Of a stretch of 64,000 nucleotides of DNA, positions 7,577-51,645 are shown piece by piece. The notes below the pieces were generated by a model. That model searched no databases and was not told where the DNA came from. It saw nothing but the letters and a program-made list of their open reading frames with translations. The translations under genes and the position numbers were made by a program. The number at the start of each line of letters is the position of its first letter. Position 1 is the first letter of the stretch. Origin of the DNA: Solibacillus sp. FSL R5-0449 (GTDB taxonomy: Bacteria; Bacillota; Bacilli; Bacillales_A; Planococcaceae); assembly GCF_037975215.1 (NCBI RefSeq), contig NZ_CP150239.1, forward strand, positions 1,278,001 to 1,342,000, given 5' to 3'.

Positions 7577-7748
7577 ATGTATTAGGTGCCAAAACCTCGG
7601 TGAAGATTTAGTCTTCACAACAAAAGCCTCCACCAACAGCACGGATTTGCTGGGAAGCTTTTGAATTGTGCAGGGAGATGAGCCCCTGCACACCTATACA
7701 TAGTATATTAACCTAGTGTTGTCCCTTGTGGCGGCACTAGGTTTTTTT
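7577..7748 (+). ncRNA. Candidate structured small RNA or 3'UTR RNA
   Basis: This non-coding stretch is rich in perfect stems: GTGAAGA/TCTTCAC (7600-7618), AAAAGC/GCTTTT (7622-7662) enclosing CAGCA/TGCTG (7637-7652), TGTGCAGGG/CCCTGCACA (7667-7692), and a possible closing stem CTATGTAT-T-AGGTG (7575-7588) with CACCTATACATAG (7691-7703). It ends at a strong terminator, CCTAGTG/CACTAGG (7712-7741) plus seven T. I do not recognise the family; it does not match my memory of 6S, tmRNA, SRP RNA or common riboswitches. It could be an independent RNA or a processed antiporter 3'UTR. Confidence 0.5.
7712..7748 (+). terminator. Terminator ending antiporter 1 / candidate RNA
   Basis: CCTAGTG (7712-7718) pairs with CACTAGG (7735-7741), followed by TTTTTTT. 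Confidence 0.9.
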
Positions 7749-7778: not shown

Positions 7779-7954
7779 TATATTAGAACATTTGAGGGGA
7801 TATTAGAATATTTGCGTCGGATATTTGAAGAACTGGGAATGATATTAGAACAAGTTGGACTTTTATTAGAACAGTTGGCGGTTATATTAGAAAATCGCGA
7901 TTTTATTCGAACAAATTAAATTTTATTAGAAGATATGTAAAATATATTAGAACT
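7779..7954 (+). repeat. 21-bp-phased TATTNGAA array 1 (nine units)
   Basis: Cores begin at 7781, 7801, 7822, 7843, 7864, 7885, 7904, 7924 and 7945, giving steps of 20, 21, 21, 21, 21, 19, 20 and 21. The core is TATTAGAA with variants TATTTGAA (unit 3) and TATTCGAA (unit 7), usually followed by C or G then A. The remaining 11 or so bases of each unit vary. Lies 30 bases after a terminator and before the dinG promoter. Same element family as the arrays near 29.9, 37.7 and 51.2 kb. The rest of the gap (7955-8035) shows nothing else recognisable. Confidence 0.9.
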
Positions 7955-16092: not shown

Positions 16093-18774
16093 TTAATCGT
16101 CTTCCGAGTCTTCAGGTCTTGTTTCACCACCAGAAGTCGGTGGGCTTGGCTGGTTTGGTTGTGATGGCTCAGGGTCTGGCTCATCTGGCTCTTCGGTATT
16201 ACCGCTGCCATTGCCGTTCCCGTTATTGCCATTGCCATTGCCATTCCCGTTGTTACCATTTCCGTTATTGCCGTTTCCGTTATTCCCATTGTTATTCCCG
16301 TTACCCGGCTGTTCCGGTTGTTCTGCATCATTCGGATCTTCAATGGAGTCATTCGGATCTTCAGGCTCTGGTGTTGTATTTCCGTCTACGTATAGTCCAA
16401 CGCTAGCCGGATCACTTCGTAAATCACCCGAAATGGCTGTAACTGTAAATGTATATTCTTTCCCTCGTTCAATGTTCGGTACTTGAATAGCGGTTGCGCT
16501 TGTCGTCGAAATGACTGTTGCCGGACCGCCATCTACTTTCATTGAAACTTCAAATGTGACAGGATCTGTATCTTCACCAGAACCGTTAAGTGAAGAATGA
16601 GACCAGGAAATATCTGCAAGTTGTGCTGCATCATTAAATGATGCCTGTAAACCAGTAGGTGCATCTAAATTTTGAGGAACAAATTCCTCTGTATACTCAG
16701 TTGGCTCCGTTCCTTTAACAAATAGTTCTGTCGCTTTTTGTGTAGCTGGTGTATATTCATTCGCCAGCTTTAATGGATTTGATCCAACGACAATCGAAGC
16801 CGATACGACACTGCTTGGCTGTTTAAATGATGACGACGGGTTATGCTGATTTAAATCCGTCATGATCGATTTGAACAATTGTTGCGGCAACCAGCGCTCT
16901 TCCCAAGTTGTAATGGCATCTTTACGCTGTGAATACCCGCCCCAAATCGCGATCGAGTAGTTTGTTGTATAACCGGCAAACCATGTATCCGGTACTGAGC
17001 CATTCTTTAAATTGAACTTTTCAAATTCATCTGATCCATAGTTAGTTGTACCGGTTTTACCTGCAATATCAACGCCTGCTACTGCTGCACGCGGCGCAGA
17101 GGCATTGCGTTTGTTACTAACTGTATCACGTAAAATATCCGTTACCATATAAGCAGTATAATCACTCATCGCTTTTTTGGATTCCGGTTTAAATGATTTT
17201 GACGTTTTTCCATCACGGAAAACAATTTTCGTAATGGCATGCGGACTATTATAAGTACCGTTGTTGCCGAATGCTGCATAGGAAGCGGCCATTTGGACAG
17301 GAGAAATATTGACGCGTCCTCCACCAAGTGCTTCCGATTCTGTCAATCCGCTTGATTTAATCCCTAAGTTGCCTAAAAACTCTTTCGCACGTTCAGGACC
17401 GACTTCGCGGAAAGTTTTCACAGCCGGAATATTTCGTGATGTATAAAGCGCTTCACGCACTGTCATCGCGCCTAAATAGCGGCCGTCCCAGTTACCGATT
17501 ACCTGATCAGAACCGGAATACGTAATCTTTTCATCGACCGTAGTCTGACCAGTCGACCATTTTAAATATTCAATGGCTGGCCCGTAATCAATTAAAGGTT
17601 TTAAAGTTGAACCAGGCTGGCGTGTTGTCATATCGTAGGCAAAGTTATAGTTAAATTCACCTGTATAATTTCGTCCGCCGCCAATTGCACGAATTTCACC
17701 TGTTGGTGTATCGATGACTGCAACACCGGCTTGGATCTCTTCGGTAGGGAAGTTGCTGTCATTGTTCATTAAATTTTCTACAGTCGTCTGTGCTTTTGGA
17801 TCTAGCGTTGTATAAACTTTGATCCCTTCAGAAGTCAGTTCGCTGTCACCATTTTTTTCAAGTTCTGCTAAAACGACATCCAAAAAGGCCGGGTATTTCG
17901 TTGTACTGTTAGCTACACGCTCTTCTTCAGGAATGAGTCCGCCAGTAATAGGTTCCTTTTTCGCTTTTTCCGCTTCCGCTTCGCTAATTTTCCCGTGCTG
18001 AACCATTAAACCTAAAACGATATTACGACGTTTTTTAGCACGGTCCGGCTTTTTGTACGGGTTATAATTGTTTGGACTTTGCGGCATCCCTGCTAATTGA
18101 GCATATTCAGCCAATGACAGTTCACTTAATTCTTTTCCGTAAAATTCTTTGGCTGCTGTACCAAAGCCATGAATTCTACCTGACATTAAGATTTTATTAA
18201 AGTACATTTCGAAAATTTCTTCTTTACTATATTCACGTTCCAGCTTGATTGCGAGCCAAGCTTCCTGTGCTTTACGCTCCAGCTTTTTCTCATTGGTAAA
18301 GAATGAGTTCTTTACAACTTGCTGAGTAATGGTACTCGCACCCTGTGCACCAAATCCATCACGGAAGTTGGCAAGTACGGCACCGCCAAGACGCCACAAG
18401 TCTACACCGAAGTGATCGAAAAATCGTGCATCTTCTGTTGCAATAATCGCATCAATCATCTGCTGTGGAATATCTTCATATTTAACATAATTTCGTTTTT
18501 CTGCACCAATTGTTGCAAAAAGTTCGCCATTTATATCATAAAATTCCGATGAAATCGGATCCTTTAATGCATCCTCATCCAGTTCCGGTGCTTTGCTCAC
18601 ATAGTAGCCAAATAATGCAGCACCACTTAAGAAACCAATTACCCCAATTAAAACGATTGCTAAAACAATGCGCTTAATCCATTTCCCAGCAGAAGTTTTC
18701 GGTTTTCTGGATTTTTTGTTTTGTTGTTGACGTTCGCGTTTAATCTGTTCGCGTGTTTTTCTATTCTCCGTCAC
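16093..18774 (-). CDS. ponA: Class A penicillin-binding protein 1A/1B (PonA)
   Basis: 893 residues from a GTG start at 18774, preferred because GAGGAG lies 7 bases upstream; ATG 18801 would sit inside recU. Basic cytoplasmic tail, transmembrane helix (about 40-62), glycosyltransferase GT51 with the catalytic glutamate in TEDARFF (about 114) and GASTITQQ, then a transpeptidase with PGSTLK (Ser about 390), SRN and KTGTTN. A fibronectin type III-like domain follows (about 690-780). The tail ends with a Gly/Asn repeat (about 821-861) and a Pro/Glu/Asp end. It polymerises and cross-links peptidoglycan. It overlaps recU by 14 bp as in Bacillus. Confidence 0.95.
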   Translation of the reverse strand: MTENRKTREQIKRERQQQNKKSRKPKTSAGKWIKRIVLAIVLIGVIGFLSGAALFGYYVSKAPELDEDALKDPISSEFYDINGELFATIGAEKRNYVKYEDIPQQMIDAIIATEDARFFDHFGVDLWRLGGAVLANFRDGFGAQGASTITQQVVKNSFFTNEKKLERKAQEAWLAIKLEREYSKEEIFEMYFNKILMSGRIHGFGTAAKEFYGKELSELSLAEYAQLAGMPQSPNNYNPYKKPDRAKKRRNIVLGLMVQHGKISEAEAEKAKKEPITGGLIPEEERVANSTTKYPAFLDVVLAELEKNGDSELTSEGIKVYTTLDPKAQTTVENLMNNDSNFPTEEIQAGVAVIDTPTGEIRAIGGGRNYTGEFNYNFAYDMTTRQPGSTLKPLIDYGPAIEYLKWSTGQTTVDEKITYSGSDQVIGNWDGRYLGAMTVREALYTSRNIPAVKTFREVGPERAKEFLGNLGIKSSGLTESEALGGGRVNISPVQMAASYAAFGNNGTYNSPHAITKIVFRDGKTSKSFKPESKKAMSDYTAYMVTDILRDTVSNKRNASAPRAAVAGVDIAGKTGTTNYGSDEFEKFNLKNGSVPDTWFAGYTTNYSIAIWGGYSQRKDAITTWEERWLPQQLFKSIMTDLNQHNPSSSFKQPSSVVSASIVVGSNPLKLANEYTPATQKATELFVKGTEPTEYTEEFVPQNLDAPTGLQASFNDAAQLADISWSHSSLNGSGEDTDPVTFEVSMKVDGGPATVISTTSATAIQVPNIERGKEYTFTVTAISGDLRSDPASVGLYVDGNTTPEPEDPNDSIEDPNDAEQPEQPGNGNNNGNNGNGNNGNGNNGNGNGNGNNGNGNGSGNTEEPDEPDPEPSQPNQPSPPTSGGETRPEDSEDD

Positions 18775-19444
18775 GTTGTTTCTCCTCACTTTCACAAACA
18801 TTGTTGTTTGCGATTAACTTTTTTACCGCTTGCAAATAGTCGAGCCTCGGTAAATAACCTTCGGAAATTTCGAAGGCATCCTGCTCGAATACGGCGATTG
18901 GTATAGATTTTCTTCCCCCTTCATCCATTGCTGAAAACCATTTTGCCACAATATCATAAGAAATAACAAAATTCCGGTTTAGCATGCTGAATCGTACAAT
19001 GAAAAACGCAACGCCTCGTTGATTTGTCACGGAATGCATATGATCCATTTGATGGGGGTGAATGTTTTTTAATGGAAAGGATGTTTTACTATCCGTTTCT
19101 TTTGCTTCAAAATCAATGTAGTATCCATTCCATACGCCATTATAATCCGTCGTTGAAGGTGTGCGGAAATAAGCCTCTTTAATGACAGCAGCACTTCTAG
19201 CCGGATAATCTACTTTGACGATTTGTATAGGAACAGGTTTCTTGTGTATATTTGCCATATTCCTATGTAAATAAAACATATTTGTTTCATTTAGGTCATC
19301 TTCTAAGCTTTTTCCACGGTTACTGTAATTGACGGCTCTTTTATTTTTTTCTTTAGCACTCGATTGAAACTTGGCAGATTCTTTATTTTTCTCAACCTTT
19401 GGGGCATTTTCATAGAGTTTACCGTTTGGATAACGAATCACCAT
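18761..19444 (-). CDS. recU: Holliday junction resolvase RecU
   Basis: 227 residues. A basic, disordered N-terminus is followed by the nuclease core with NRGKSLEDDLN, the metal-binding acidic residues in GYYIDFEAKET and the HPHQMDHM segment. RecU cleaves four-way junctions with RuvAB and is the Firmicute counterpart of RuvC. A strong Shine-Dalgarno site (GAAGGTGA) precedes the ATG. First gene of the recU-ponA transcript, divergent from the gene at 19627. Confidence 0.95.
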   Translation of the reverse strand: MVIRYPNGKLYENAPKVEKNKESAKFQSSAKEKNKRAVNYSNRGKSLEDDLNETNMFYLHRNMANIHKKPVPIQIVKVDYPARSAAVIKEAYFRTPSTTDYNGVWNGYYIDFEAKETDSKTSFPLKNIHPHQMDHMHSVTNQRGVAFFIVRFSMLNRNFVISYDIVAKWFSAMDEGGRKSIPIAVFEQDAFEISEGYLPRLDYLQAVKKLIANNNVCESEEKQRDGE

Positions 19445-29863: not shown

Positions 29864-29895
29864 AACCCCGTTCGAGAGGATCGAGCGGGGTTTTT
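29864..29895 (+). terminator. Terminator after YpvA-like helicase
   Basis: A 12-pair stem, AACCCCGTTCGA (29864-29875) with TCGAGCGGGGTT (29881-29892) including one G-U, followed by TTT. Confidence 0.9.
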
Positions 29896-29925: not shown

Positions 29926-30099
29926 TTCTAATAAGTAACAATGATGTTCTAATAAAATGAAAAAGCGTCTAATAAAAAGCTGATTTTCTAATAAGCAAAT
30001 CATATCTTCTAATATGAAGTTGAGAAGTTCAAATATAGTAGTGAATAATTCTAATAATTTATAGAGTTGTTCTAATATCCGTAAATATCTTCAAATAAA
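29926..30099 (-). repeat. 21-bp-phased TATTNGAA array 2 (nine units, minus orientation)
   Basis: On the plus strand the cores read TTCNAATA. CTAATA/CAAATA begins at 29928, 29949, 29969, 29988, 30009, 30030, 30051, 30072 and 30092. Read in the TATTNGAA direction the steps are 20, 21, 21, 21, 21, 19, 20, 21, exactly those of array 1. Units 1 and 4 are TATTTGAA. Unit 1 abuts the T-run of the cheX terminator; unit 9 lies 30 bases from the ypvA terminator. Confidence 0.9.
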
Positions 30100-37569: not shown

Positions 37570-37584
37570 TTTTTGAATTTAAGG

Positions 37585-37615
37585 CAGCATCTCGATTATG
37601 AGGTGCTGTTTTTTA
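37585..37615 (+). terminator. Terminator after the TusA-like gene
   Basis: CAGCATCTC (37585-37593) pairs, with one G-U, with GAGGTGCTG (37600-37608), followed by TTTTTT. Confidence 0.9.
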
Positions 37616-37704
37616 TTTGGATGATTGTGCATATTACCCGACACTAGGGTTAGGGAAAGGCATTTTGAGTGCGCTTTTAAGGCAACGTCAAGATTGAAAG
37701 CCAT

Positions 37705-38013
37705 TTTATTAGAACAATTGCAGGAGTTATTAGAACAATTCAGTGGGATATTAGAAGATTCTACGTCGATATTAGAAGAAAGTGAACCGACCGCTGCTTT
37801 TGCCTGGAAATTTATATACCTAGTGCTTGGTTTGGAGTTTTATTAGAACAATTCAGCAGTTTATTAGACAAAGTGCGGGTGATATTAGAAGATTGGGAGA
37901 TGATATTTGAACATCGCGGACACTTATTAGAACAACCAGAAGATATATTAGATAATCGGCATTTTATTAGAACAAATAAAATTATATTAGAACATTTCCG
38001 AATTTATTAGAAA
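37705..38013 (+). repeat. 21-bp-phased TATTNGAA array 3 (four plus nine units)
   Basis: Block a: cores at 37707, 37728, 37749 and 37770 (21-bp steps). After a 71-bp step, block b: 37841, 37862, 37883, 37904, 37925, 37946, 37965, 37985 and 38005, steps 21, 21, 21, 21, 21, 19, 20, 20. Unit 4 of block b is TATTTGAA. An ORF across block a (37625-37846) reads heptads such as ILLEQLQ only because 21 is divisible by 3; it has no ribosome site. No other feature is seen between 37616 and 38143. Confidence 0.9.
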
Positions 38014-51155: not shown

Positions 51156-51196
51156 AAAACGGCGCTCAATCATTAATATTGAGCAGCCGTTTTTTG
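51156..51196 (+). terminator. Terminator of the Pit operon
   Basis: AAAACGGC and CTCAAT pair with ATTGAG and GCCGTTTT (a small internal loop between), followed by TT. Loop CATTAAT. Confidence 0.8.
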
Positions 51197-51218: not shown

Positions 51219-51645
51219 TTCTAATATAGTTGCTGGTTGTTCTAATATAATTTGAAAAGTTCTAATAAAACCAGGGAAGTTCTAATAAAATATTAAATGT
51301 TCTAATATATCGCGGAACTTCTAATAAAGTGTACGTTTGTTCTAATATGACTACGCGATTTTCAAATAAACATTATGAAAGTTCTAATATATCCCTCAGC
51401 TCTTCTAATATCAGTCACAAAAGTTCTAATATATTACGCAGATTGCAACCACATAAACCATAATGACGTCCCAAATAACTCCGGAACAGTTCATGCAACG
51501 GTTCTTCTAATATGAGCACGCGATCTTCAAATAAACTCTATGAAAGTTCTAATATATCCCTCAACTTTTCTAATATCAATCACAAAAGTTCTAATATATT
51601 ACGACGCTTGCAACCACATAAACCGTCCCATATCACTTCAAATAA
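51219..51645 (-). repeat. 21-bp-phased TATTNGAA array 4 with tandem duplication
   Basis: CTAATA/CAAATA starts at 51221, 51242, 51262, 51282, 51302, 51321, 51342, 51363, 51384, 51405 and 51426. In the TATTNGAA direction the steps are 21, 21, 21, 21, 21, 19, 20, 20, 20, 21. Unit 4 is TATTTGAA. Five more units (51507, 51528, 51549, 51570, 51591) repeat units 1-5 exactly 165 bp away. The duplicated block also contains a decayed copy of the htrA 3' end near 51472-51500. A further core at 51639 encodes the last htrA codons. Confidence 0.9.

Follow-up and report, generated by a model that had tools for sequence, protein, structure and literature searches.

Dispersed direct-repeat arrays held in helical phase, mostly behind terminators, on Solibacillus chromosomes, with a putative role in cooperative protein binding

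Bacterial intergenic space is commonly read as promoters, terminators and mobile debris, and phased binding arrays are already known as a principle. In pSK41-type ParR/parC centromeres, repeats of about 20 bp form single sites beside parMR on plasmids, and the iterons of plasmid replication are direct repeats of about 19-22 bp set two turns apart. CRISPR arrays are built of repeats of some 20-40 bp and unique spacers of constant length, with cas genes nearby. BldC, a MerR-like protein of Streptomyces, is described as forming cooperative head-to-tail oligomers on direct repeats, at sites of very different lengths (PMC5859096).

The arrays described here were first reported in an earlier note on a window of 64,000 nucleotides, the whole stretch of DNA analysed, which covers positions 1,278,001-1,342,000 of a single-contig 3.58-Mb Solibacillus genome (G000, the reference below). 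All four intergenic arrays lie where that note put them, and the step series that it gave, read in the direction of the core, were confirmed in the sequence: one series is common to arrays 1 and 2, and another to the nine-unit blocks of arrays 3 and 4 (Table 1). One core of array 2 is mismatched (TATTAGAC), as are two in block B of array 3, and an exact search for TATTNGAA misses all three. Two finer points of the note, the TATTTGAA variant at unit 4 and the AATC spacer of unit 6, are correct in the window but vary among the copies in the genome, and its rule that no step reaches 22 bp gives way to a 22-bp step found elsewhere (2 of 481 steps).

Table 1. Arrays, blocks and neighbouring terminators in the window (positions count from the first letter of the window)
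Feature	Position	Strand	Basis	Neighbouring genes
Intrinsic terminator immediately ahead of array 1	7712..7748	+	sequence	
Array 1, nine-unit block, steps 20-21-21-21-21-19-20-21	7781..7952	+	sequence, unit mapping	Na+/H+ exchanger gene on one side, dinG-like exonuclease/helicase gene on the other
Terminator of convergent gene, facing last unit of array 2	29866..29895	+	sequence	
Array 2, nine-unit block, step series as in array 1	29926..30097	-		flanked by convergent genes, helicase and CheX
Terminator of TusA gene, about 90 bp from the start of array 3	37583..37616	+	sequence	
Array 3, block A, four units (21-21-21)	37707..37777	+	unit mapping	
Array 3, block B, nine units (21x5-19-20-20)	37841..38012	+		upstream of penicillin-binding protein gene
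Terminator of phosphate-transporter gene, facing last unit of array 4	51158..51196	+	sequence	
Array 4, eleven units (21x5-19-20-20-20-21)	51219..51431	-		flanked by convergent genes, phosphate transporter and trypsin-like protease
Array 4, second block, five units (21x4), core-to-core distance from the eleven-unit block 81 bp	51505..51596	-		
Lone core near array 4	51637..51644	-		at end of protease gene

Two other features of the window were seen. A candidate small RNA without annotation occupies 7584-7748, from the Na+/H+ exchanger gene to array 1; its start looks promoter-like by eye, and it contains a terminator and a number of predicted hairpins. Across all 16 Solibacillus genomes 109 of its 184 alignment columns are invariant, the terminator stem shows changes on both sides (by eye), and no Rfam match was found even at E<=1. 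A tandem repeat with 27- and 15-bp periods lies at 16197-16307, inside a long ORF (16093-18801, minus strand).

Across the reference genome the unit is a direct repeat with the consensus K-W-TATTAGAA-V-A/T-W, derived from 561 copies. Three TATTNGAA cores at 11-13 bp spacing were matched 186 times on the forward and 133 times on the reverse strand (319 triples) and a reversed control pattern not once, so the number of arrays is far above chance. The triple that includes the 19-bp step gave 44 matches along the chromosome, again with none for the control. There are at least 45 elements of at least four units, 42 of them with at least nine; most arrays have 9 to 17 units and a few up to 33. From 39 fetched regions and the window we read 50 blocks with a 19-bp step, and 44 of them, with one mismatch per core allowed, consist of nine units spanning 163-165 bp in all, the 19-bp step falling between units 6 and 7. 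The typical nine-unit block (block B) thus has five steps of about 21 bp followed by 19, 20 and 20 or 21, and many such blocks have a four-unit block (block A, 21-21-21) upstream at a core-to-core distance of 71-82 bp. A genome scan, which the earlier note had proposed as a check, returned many copies with the 19-bp step at one place, a result that it had named as part of the support. What it had named as telling against its reading, random spacing or near-identical spacers, is not what the copies show, since 44 of 50 blocks share a fixed layout and the median spacer identity between copies is 0.42.

Matches with the 19-bp step are unevenly distributed, with 1 of 44 at 1.87-2.61 Mb and several elements clustered at 2.69-2.73 Mb. 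Over the 50 blocks the GC skew is about +0.2 to +0.35 before the array and in the first units; at unit 9 and immediately past it the value is about -0.25 to -0.45. G/T-rich stretches often come after the terminator T-tracts around the arrays, from both sides.

We compared orthologous copies, located through their unique flanks, between the reference and two further genomes, G003 and G008. In each of these, 20 loci were fetched with the motif, and 18 (G003) and 16 (G008) of them are co-located with an element of the reference; the flanks differ by about 12%. Finding a pair required that the 6-7-8 triple be intact in both genomes, and rates were taken from the units outside that triple, so deleted or badly decayed arrays are absent from this sample; 15 pairs in G003 and 12 in G008 were used from 43, and nine reference element ids that were tandem-duplicated or ambiguous were skipped. 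Core positions changed in 11 of 588 cases in G003 and 13 of 503 in G008, against 204 of 1084 and 243 of 917 spacer positions (p=1e-28 and p=6e-36); between species, cores thus differ at 2-3% of positions and spacers at 19-27%. One misaligned pair (367755/G003, with 19 of 42 core positions different) was omitted from the G003 figures and from the indel count, leaving 26 pairs there; with it, the raw G003 counts are 30 of 630 for cores and 248 of 1151 for spacers. Block A on its own gives 7 of 294 (G003) and 6 of 168 (G008) for cores, and 131 of 542 and 101 of 318 for spacers.

The spacing is kept as well as the word. Eight indel events, four in block B and four in block A, were found in 5659 aligned bp of array, against 63 events in 2937 bp within 60 bp outside the arrays, where the substitution rate is 24%; per base, indels are about 15 times rarer inside than just outside (p=1e-21), a count that takes in the triple (about 1200 of the 5659 bp), where the way the pairs were found forbids indels and so favours the selection reading. 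The gap between blocks A and B is intermediate in indels (10 events in 1109 bp) and has 31% substitution. As a check independent of the motif, arrays 1, 2 and 4 were traced through their neighbouring genes in 16 genomes. Such arrays, where mostly or wholly there, show differences of 2-13% in their cores and 20-55% in their spacers. G003 and G005 have lost most of array 2, and in 5 of 6 genomes array 4 is short by about one to three units; no one array or unit is therefore indispensable, and changes of array length tend to be the loss of whole units. Two orthologous array pairs from Ureibacillus show 6 of 139 core positions changed and 119 of 290 positions between cores; gaps are absent between cores and affect one core position. 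Few core changes and few indels beside drifting spacers mean that word and distance are both kept: the orthologous copies of two genera show selection on both, and the earlier suggestion of selection on core and geometry is borne out by the core-to-spacer substitution ratio and by the depletion of indels.

Cores of the arrays lie on one face of the DNA. The nine-unit block has a mean step of 20.5 bp, and elements with at least six exact cores are most coherent at 10.28 bp per turn in the reference (43 elements), at 10.26 in G003 and at 10.30 in G008. The Ureibacillus arrays also give 10.28 bp (14 elements), although their layout is 21-21-21 followed by a 40-bp gap, and the fit of both genera to a repeat of about 10.28 bp places the cores on the same face. 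Gaps between blocks in the reference are mostly near whole turns (42, 50, 63, 71-72, 81-82, 92-93, 102, 113 and 122 bp; R=0.82 at 10.1 bp), where the 42- and 63-bp gaps are trivial because one or two decayed cores are skipped, gaps of 38-41 bp are a skipped unit 7, and the 81-82 class owes much to common descent. A 58-bp gap in G003 is off whole turns, the few gap lengths of Ureibacillus (40, 61 and 82) fit 10.5 best, and the all-21 arrays of low-copy species would imply a repeat of 10.5, not 10.28. The same-face geometry in the earlier proposal, in which a protein would bind cooperatively to one face, is thus supported by the phasing at about 10.28 bp in two genera and by gaps mostly of whole turns.

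Other positions of the 19-bp step would serve the phase better. For the series 21x5-19-20-20, 158 of 168 permutations keep the phase better, and 100 of 168 do so for the other pattern; its constant position is better read as ancestral inheritance with indels purged, and was probably inherited rather than tuned. Spacers of 20-bp steps are A/T-rich (GC 0.26 vs 0.46; p=9e-5 within unit 1 and p=1e-4 within unit 8). That they compensate for the short steps was rejected, since a wedge-model estimate gives 648, 684 and 714 degrees of twist for 19-, 20- and 21-bp steps and so leaves the 20-bp step below two turns; shared descent could lie behind this link. Compensation of the first step by the last is suggestive only (p=0.06). 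Intrinsic curvature was also rejected, block B having 64 degrees in the wedge model against 64 in shuffles and 72 with shuffled spacers.

The arrays tend to lie behind terminators. An intrinsic terminator reads into the element within 150 bp in 36 of the 45 elements of the reference, most commonly at a distance of 10-45 bp, and in 1 of 135 control windows, which are mostly genic and so overstate the contrast with ordinary intergenic DNA; "behind terminators" may amount to no more than a place in safe intergenic DNA. A crude ORF call puts 19 of the 50 blocks in tandem with both neighbouring genes, 19 between convergent and 3 between divergent genes, and 9 in reversed tandem. The 29 neighbour proteins scanned (9 from the window and 20 from Ureibacillus) have unrelated functions, which argues against an operon-specific operator. 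These neighbours included no convincing candidate for the binding protein, nor did those in the low-copy genomes or the dense 2.69-2.74 Mb region of the reference, both read by eye. In G001 and G013 an ArsR-like regulator gene (named by eye) adjoins the same array (L234 5963-6478, L238 6099-6404); by eye, a TetR-like and a PadR-like gene lie within about 1.5 kb of two other arrays in G013, and eno adjoins another array in G001. None of these genes recurs beside other arrays among the neighbours read by eye. Just ahead of the array beside the ArsR-like gene, in both loci, is an inverted AAGTA..TGCTTAT-like stretch.

The history of the dinG site bears on whether the arrays are mobile. The terminator ahead of array 1 is present in 16 of 16 Solibacillus genomes, whether the array is there or not; in 8 of the 16, array 1 lies within an insert of roughly 250-290 bp right after the terminator T-tract, and the other 8 are empty of it, two of which (G009 and G015) hold different, unrelated inserts at that spot. 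Such a pattern, together with the grouping of copies into sub-families whose spacers are 69-89% identical and some of which are tandem neighbours, would fit a non-autonomous mobile repeat whose iterons are kept for a transposase or recombinase acting in trans and which lands behind terminators without a function for the host. Yet most of the fetched loci in G003 and G008 coincide with reference elements, and their cores are conserved though the copies are immobile; selection for mobility would spare no cores in old immobile copies, which counts against this reading. As to the marks of a MITE or insertion element, the array 1 insert has no inverted repeats, and with three loci compared across species no obvious target duplication was seen by eye. 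We consider a mobile repeat unlikely.

The distribution of the arrays is narrow. In Planococcaceae the exact-TATTAGAA triple was found in 13 of 261 genomes: 11 of 16 Solibacillus, 2 of 25 Ureibacillus and none in the remaining 17 genera. Named carriers are S. faecavium, S. merdavium, S. palustris, U. manganicus and U. acetophenoni. A scan of a collection of about 85,000 species matched 101 stretches, and among the 80 matches listed those outside both genera have one match per stretch, save one Odoribacteraceae contig with six matches at 63-bp intervals. No match to the array pattern was found in a plasmid collection; one weak 46-base match in phages (E=8e-4) and 13 stretches in viral contigs, with a single match apiece, were taken as chance. 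The form with the 19-20 steps occurs in 8 of 16 Solibacillus genomes, with 5 to 44 matches apiece. The low-copy species G001, G013 and G015 have few arrays, and in G001 and G013 the ones that were read contain 3 to 7 units, all steps being of 21 bp. The two carrier species of Ureibacillus have a different layout (21-21-21-40), and U. manganicus and U. acetophenoni share loci (L080/L112 and L131/L127), one with an array between M20 peptidase and SfsA and one with an array adjoining a gene of the isocitrate/isopropylmalate dehydrogenase family, which shows that in this genus, too, arrays stay where they are. Species that lack the arrays at these sites have other dispersed inserts at or near the same intergenic spots; a stretch with CGGCGGATGTCACAGATTTTT (or its complement) is common to G002, G015 and G001 (L193, L269, L287 and L289), and another insert lies in G015 at L189.

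Sites of this kind might instead titrate or load a known essential factor, such as the replication initiator, a partition or condensin loader or gyrase, and not act as a barrier to transcription. Iteron-like direct repeats two turns apart, in many copies over the chromosome and with no tie to particular genes among those scanned, are what such a factor might use. Their absence from 5 of 16 Solibacillus species means that they are not part of a universal machine, and they lack the excess intrinsic curvature that a gyrase wrap might show. To our knowledge, the core is also unlike the binding words of DnaA, ParB and Noc. We think this quite unlikely.

An element acting at the RNA level, in which transcribed UAUUAGAA repeats would be bound single-stranded by an RNA-binding protein or processed, would sit well with the position of the arrays at the 3' ends of genes and with a co-directional gene 5' of 38 of 50 blocks (tandem copies counted singly, crude ORF calls), but we judge it very improbable. 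Quantisation in helical turns over gaps of up to 12 turns would be meaningless in RNA, arrays run in both directions relative to genes, and 36 of 45 elements are behind terminators. The mean folding z of 50 elements is -0.48 and -0.55, with single elements down to -7.4. Structured RNA was rejected, as there is no mean folding excess over shuffles and none of the four Rfam matches in the window falls on an array, the array 1 region having none at E<=1.

A heptad coding repeat was rejected as well. An LLE frame is visible and is open over units 1-6 in 13 of 50 blocks, but 39 in-frame stops against 36.5 expected is no depletion, and the per-position substitution rates show no three-base periodicity by eye; the earlier exclusion of coding was right in its result, although the 19- and 20-bp steps together (39 bp) restore the frame.

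That the arrays are the remains of a recently spread minisatellite without selection is extremely improbable despite their tandem arrangement and some duplications or losses of units (in G003 and G008 at array 4, and in tandem elements at 313-314 kb), because the spacers have diverged between copies while cores and spacing have not, and the core-to-spacer substitution ratios refute a minisatellite or VNTR.

From these patterns we infer that many copies of one putative sequence-specific DNA-binding protein may assemble cooperatively at the dispersed arrays. Each protomer or dimer would read the 13-bp word KW-TATTAGAA-VAW, head to tail, at intervals of two helical turns (about 20.5 bp, with 10.28 bp to the turn), so that a nucleoprotein ribbon would form along one face of the DNA. 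Its most likely role would be that of a barrier or insulator between transcription units, which stops read-through or torsion, or of a general site of chromosome architecture. A conserved word repeated head to tail, with a two-turn phase on one face that is held across gaps, beside unrelated genes and in both directions, fits cooperative protein binding, and the position behind terminators suggests a barrier between transcription units. Against this count the 5 of 16 Solibacillus species without the motif triple and the mixed direction of arrays relative to genes. Weighing both, we regard cooperative binding of such a protein, perhaps insulating transcription units, as the best explanation and a likely one.

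A wider picture, plausible but tentative, would be a lineage-specific chromosome architecture, in which one-sided ribbons of the putative protein would form on about 45 or more phased (~10.28 bp) arrays per chromosome and, behind terminators, act as physical boundaries between transcription units; it would have arisen or spread in Solibacillus and, under a second layout, in Ureibacillus. In both genera selection keeps one word at a fixed helical phase, several hundred copies of it in all, and lets the intervening DNA drift. If a protein assembles on them, the arrays would represent a new type of element for chromosome boundaries or insulation and would offer a natural measure of the helical repeat that the complex holds in the cell.

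Searches of openly licensed literature gave no paper on intergenic tandem repeats in Solibacillus and, among the papers listed for the letters of the core or for looser terms, none of relevance; as far as these searches and Rfam reach the element is, as had been claimed, undescribed. We know of no chromosome-wide dispersed phased arrays under measured selection for word and helical phase. The arrays fail a defining feature of every repeat family conclusively tested. CRISPR was rejected, as the core is 8 bp, the spacers are 11-13 bp and partly alike between copies, and no cas gene neighbours the arrays of the window. Plasmid iterons differ in that the arrays here are chromosome-wide and without a match in the plasmid collection, and an iteron origin was rejected because no replication initiator is among the 29 neighbour proteins from the window and Ureibacillus. 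In the accounts that we draw on, REP and BIME elements are likewise of high copy number, intergenic and candidates for roles in DNA topology or termination, but REPs are palindromic and alternate in orientation within BIMEs, whereas these arrays are non-palindromic direct repeats; this family was rejected on the non-palindromic core, the lack of a folding excess and the lack of inverted repeats of at least 9 bp at array 1. ParR/parC centromeres, in the descriptions used here, likewise consist of direct repeats in tandem, each about two turns long, and there one protein binds the array; the present arrays differ in occupying at least 45 chromosomal sites, with no parMR-type genes among the 29 neighbour proteins scanned. 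BldC, in the account cited, is a precedent for head-to-tail oligomers on direct repeats of DNA (PMC5859096), and as described there it controls a regulon of specific genes, whereas the arrays of Solibacillus lie mostly behind terminators by unrelated genes and keep a two-turn step.
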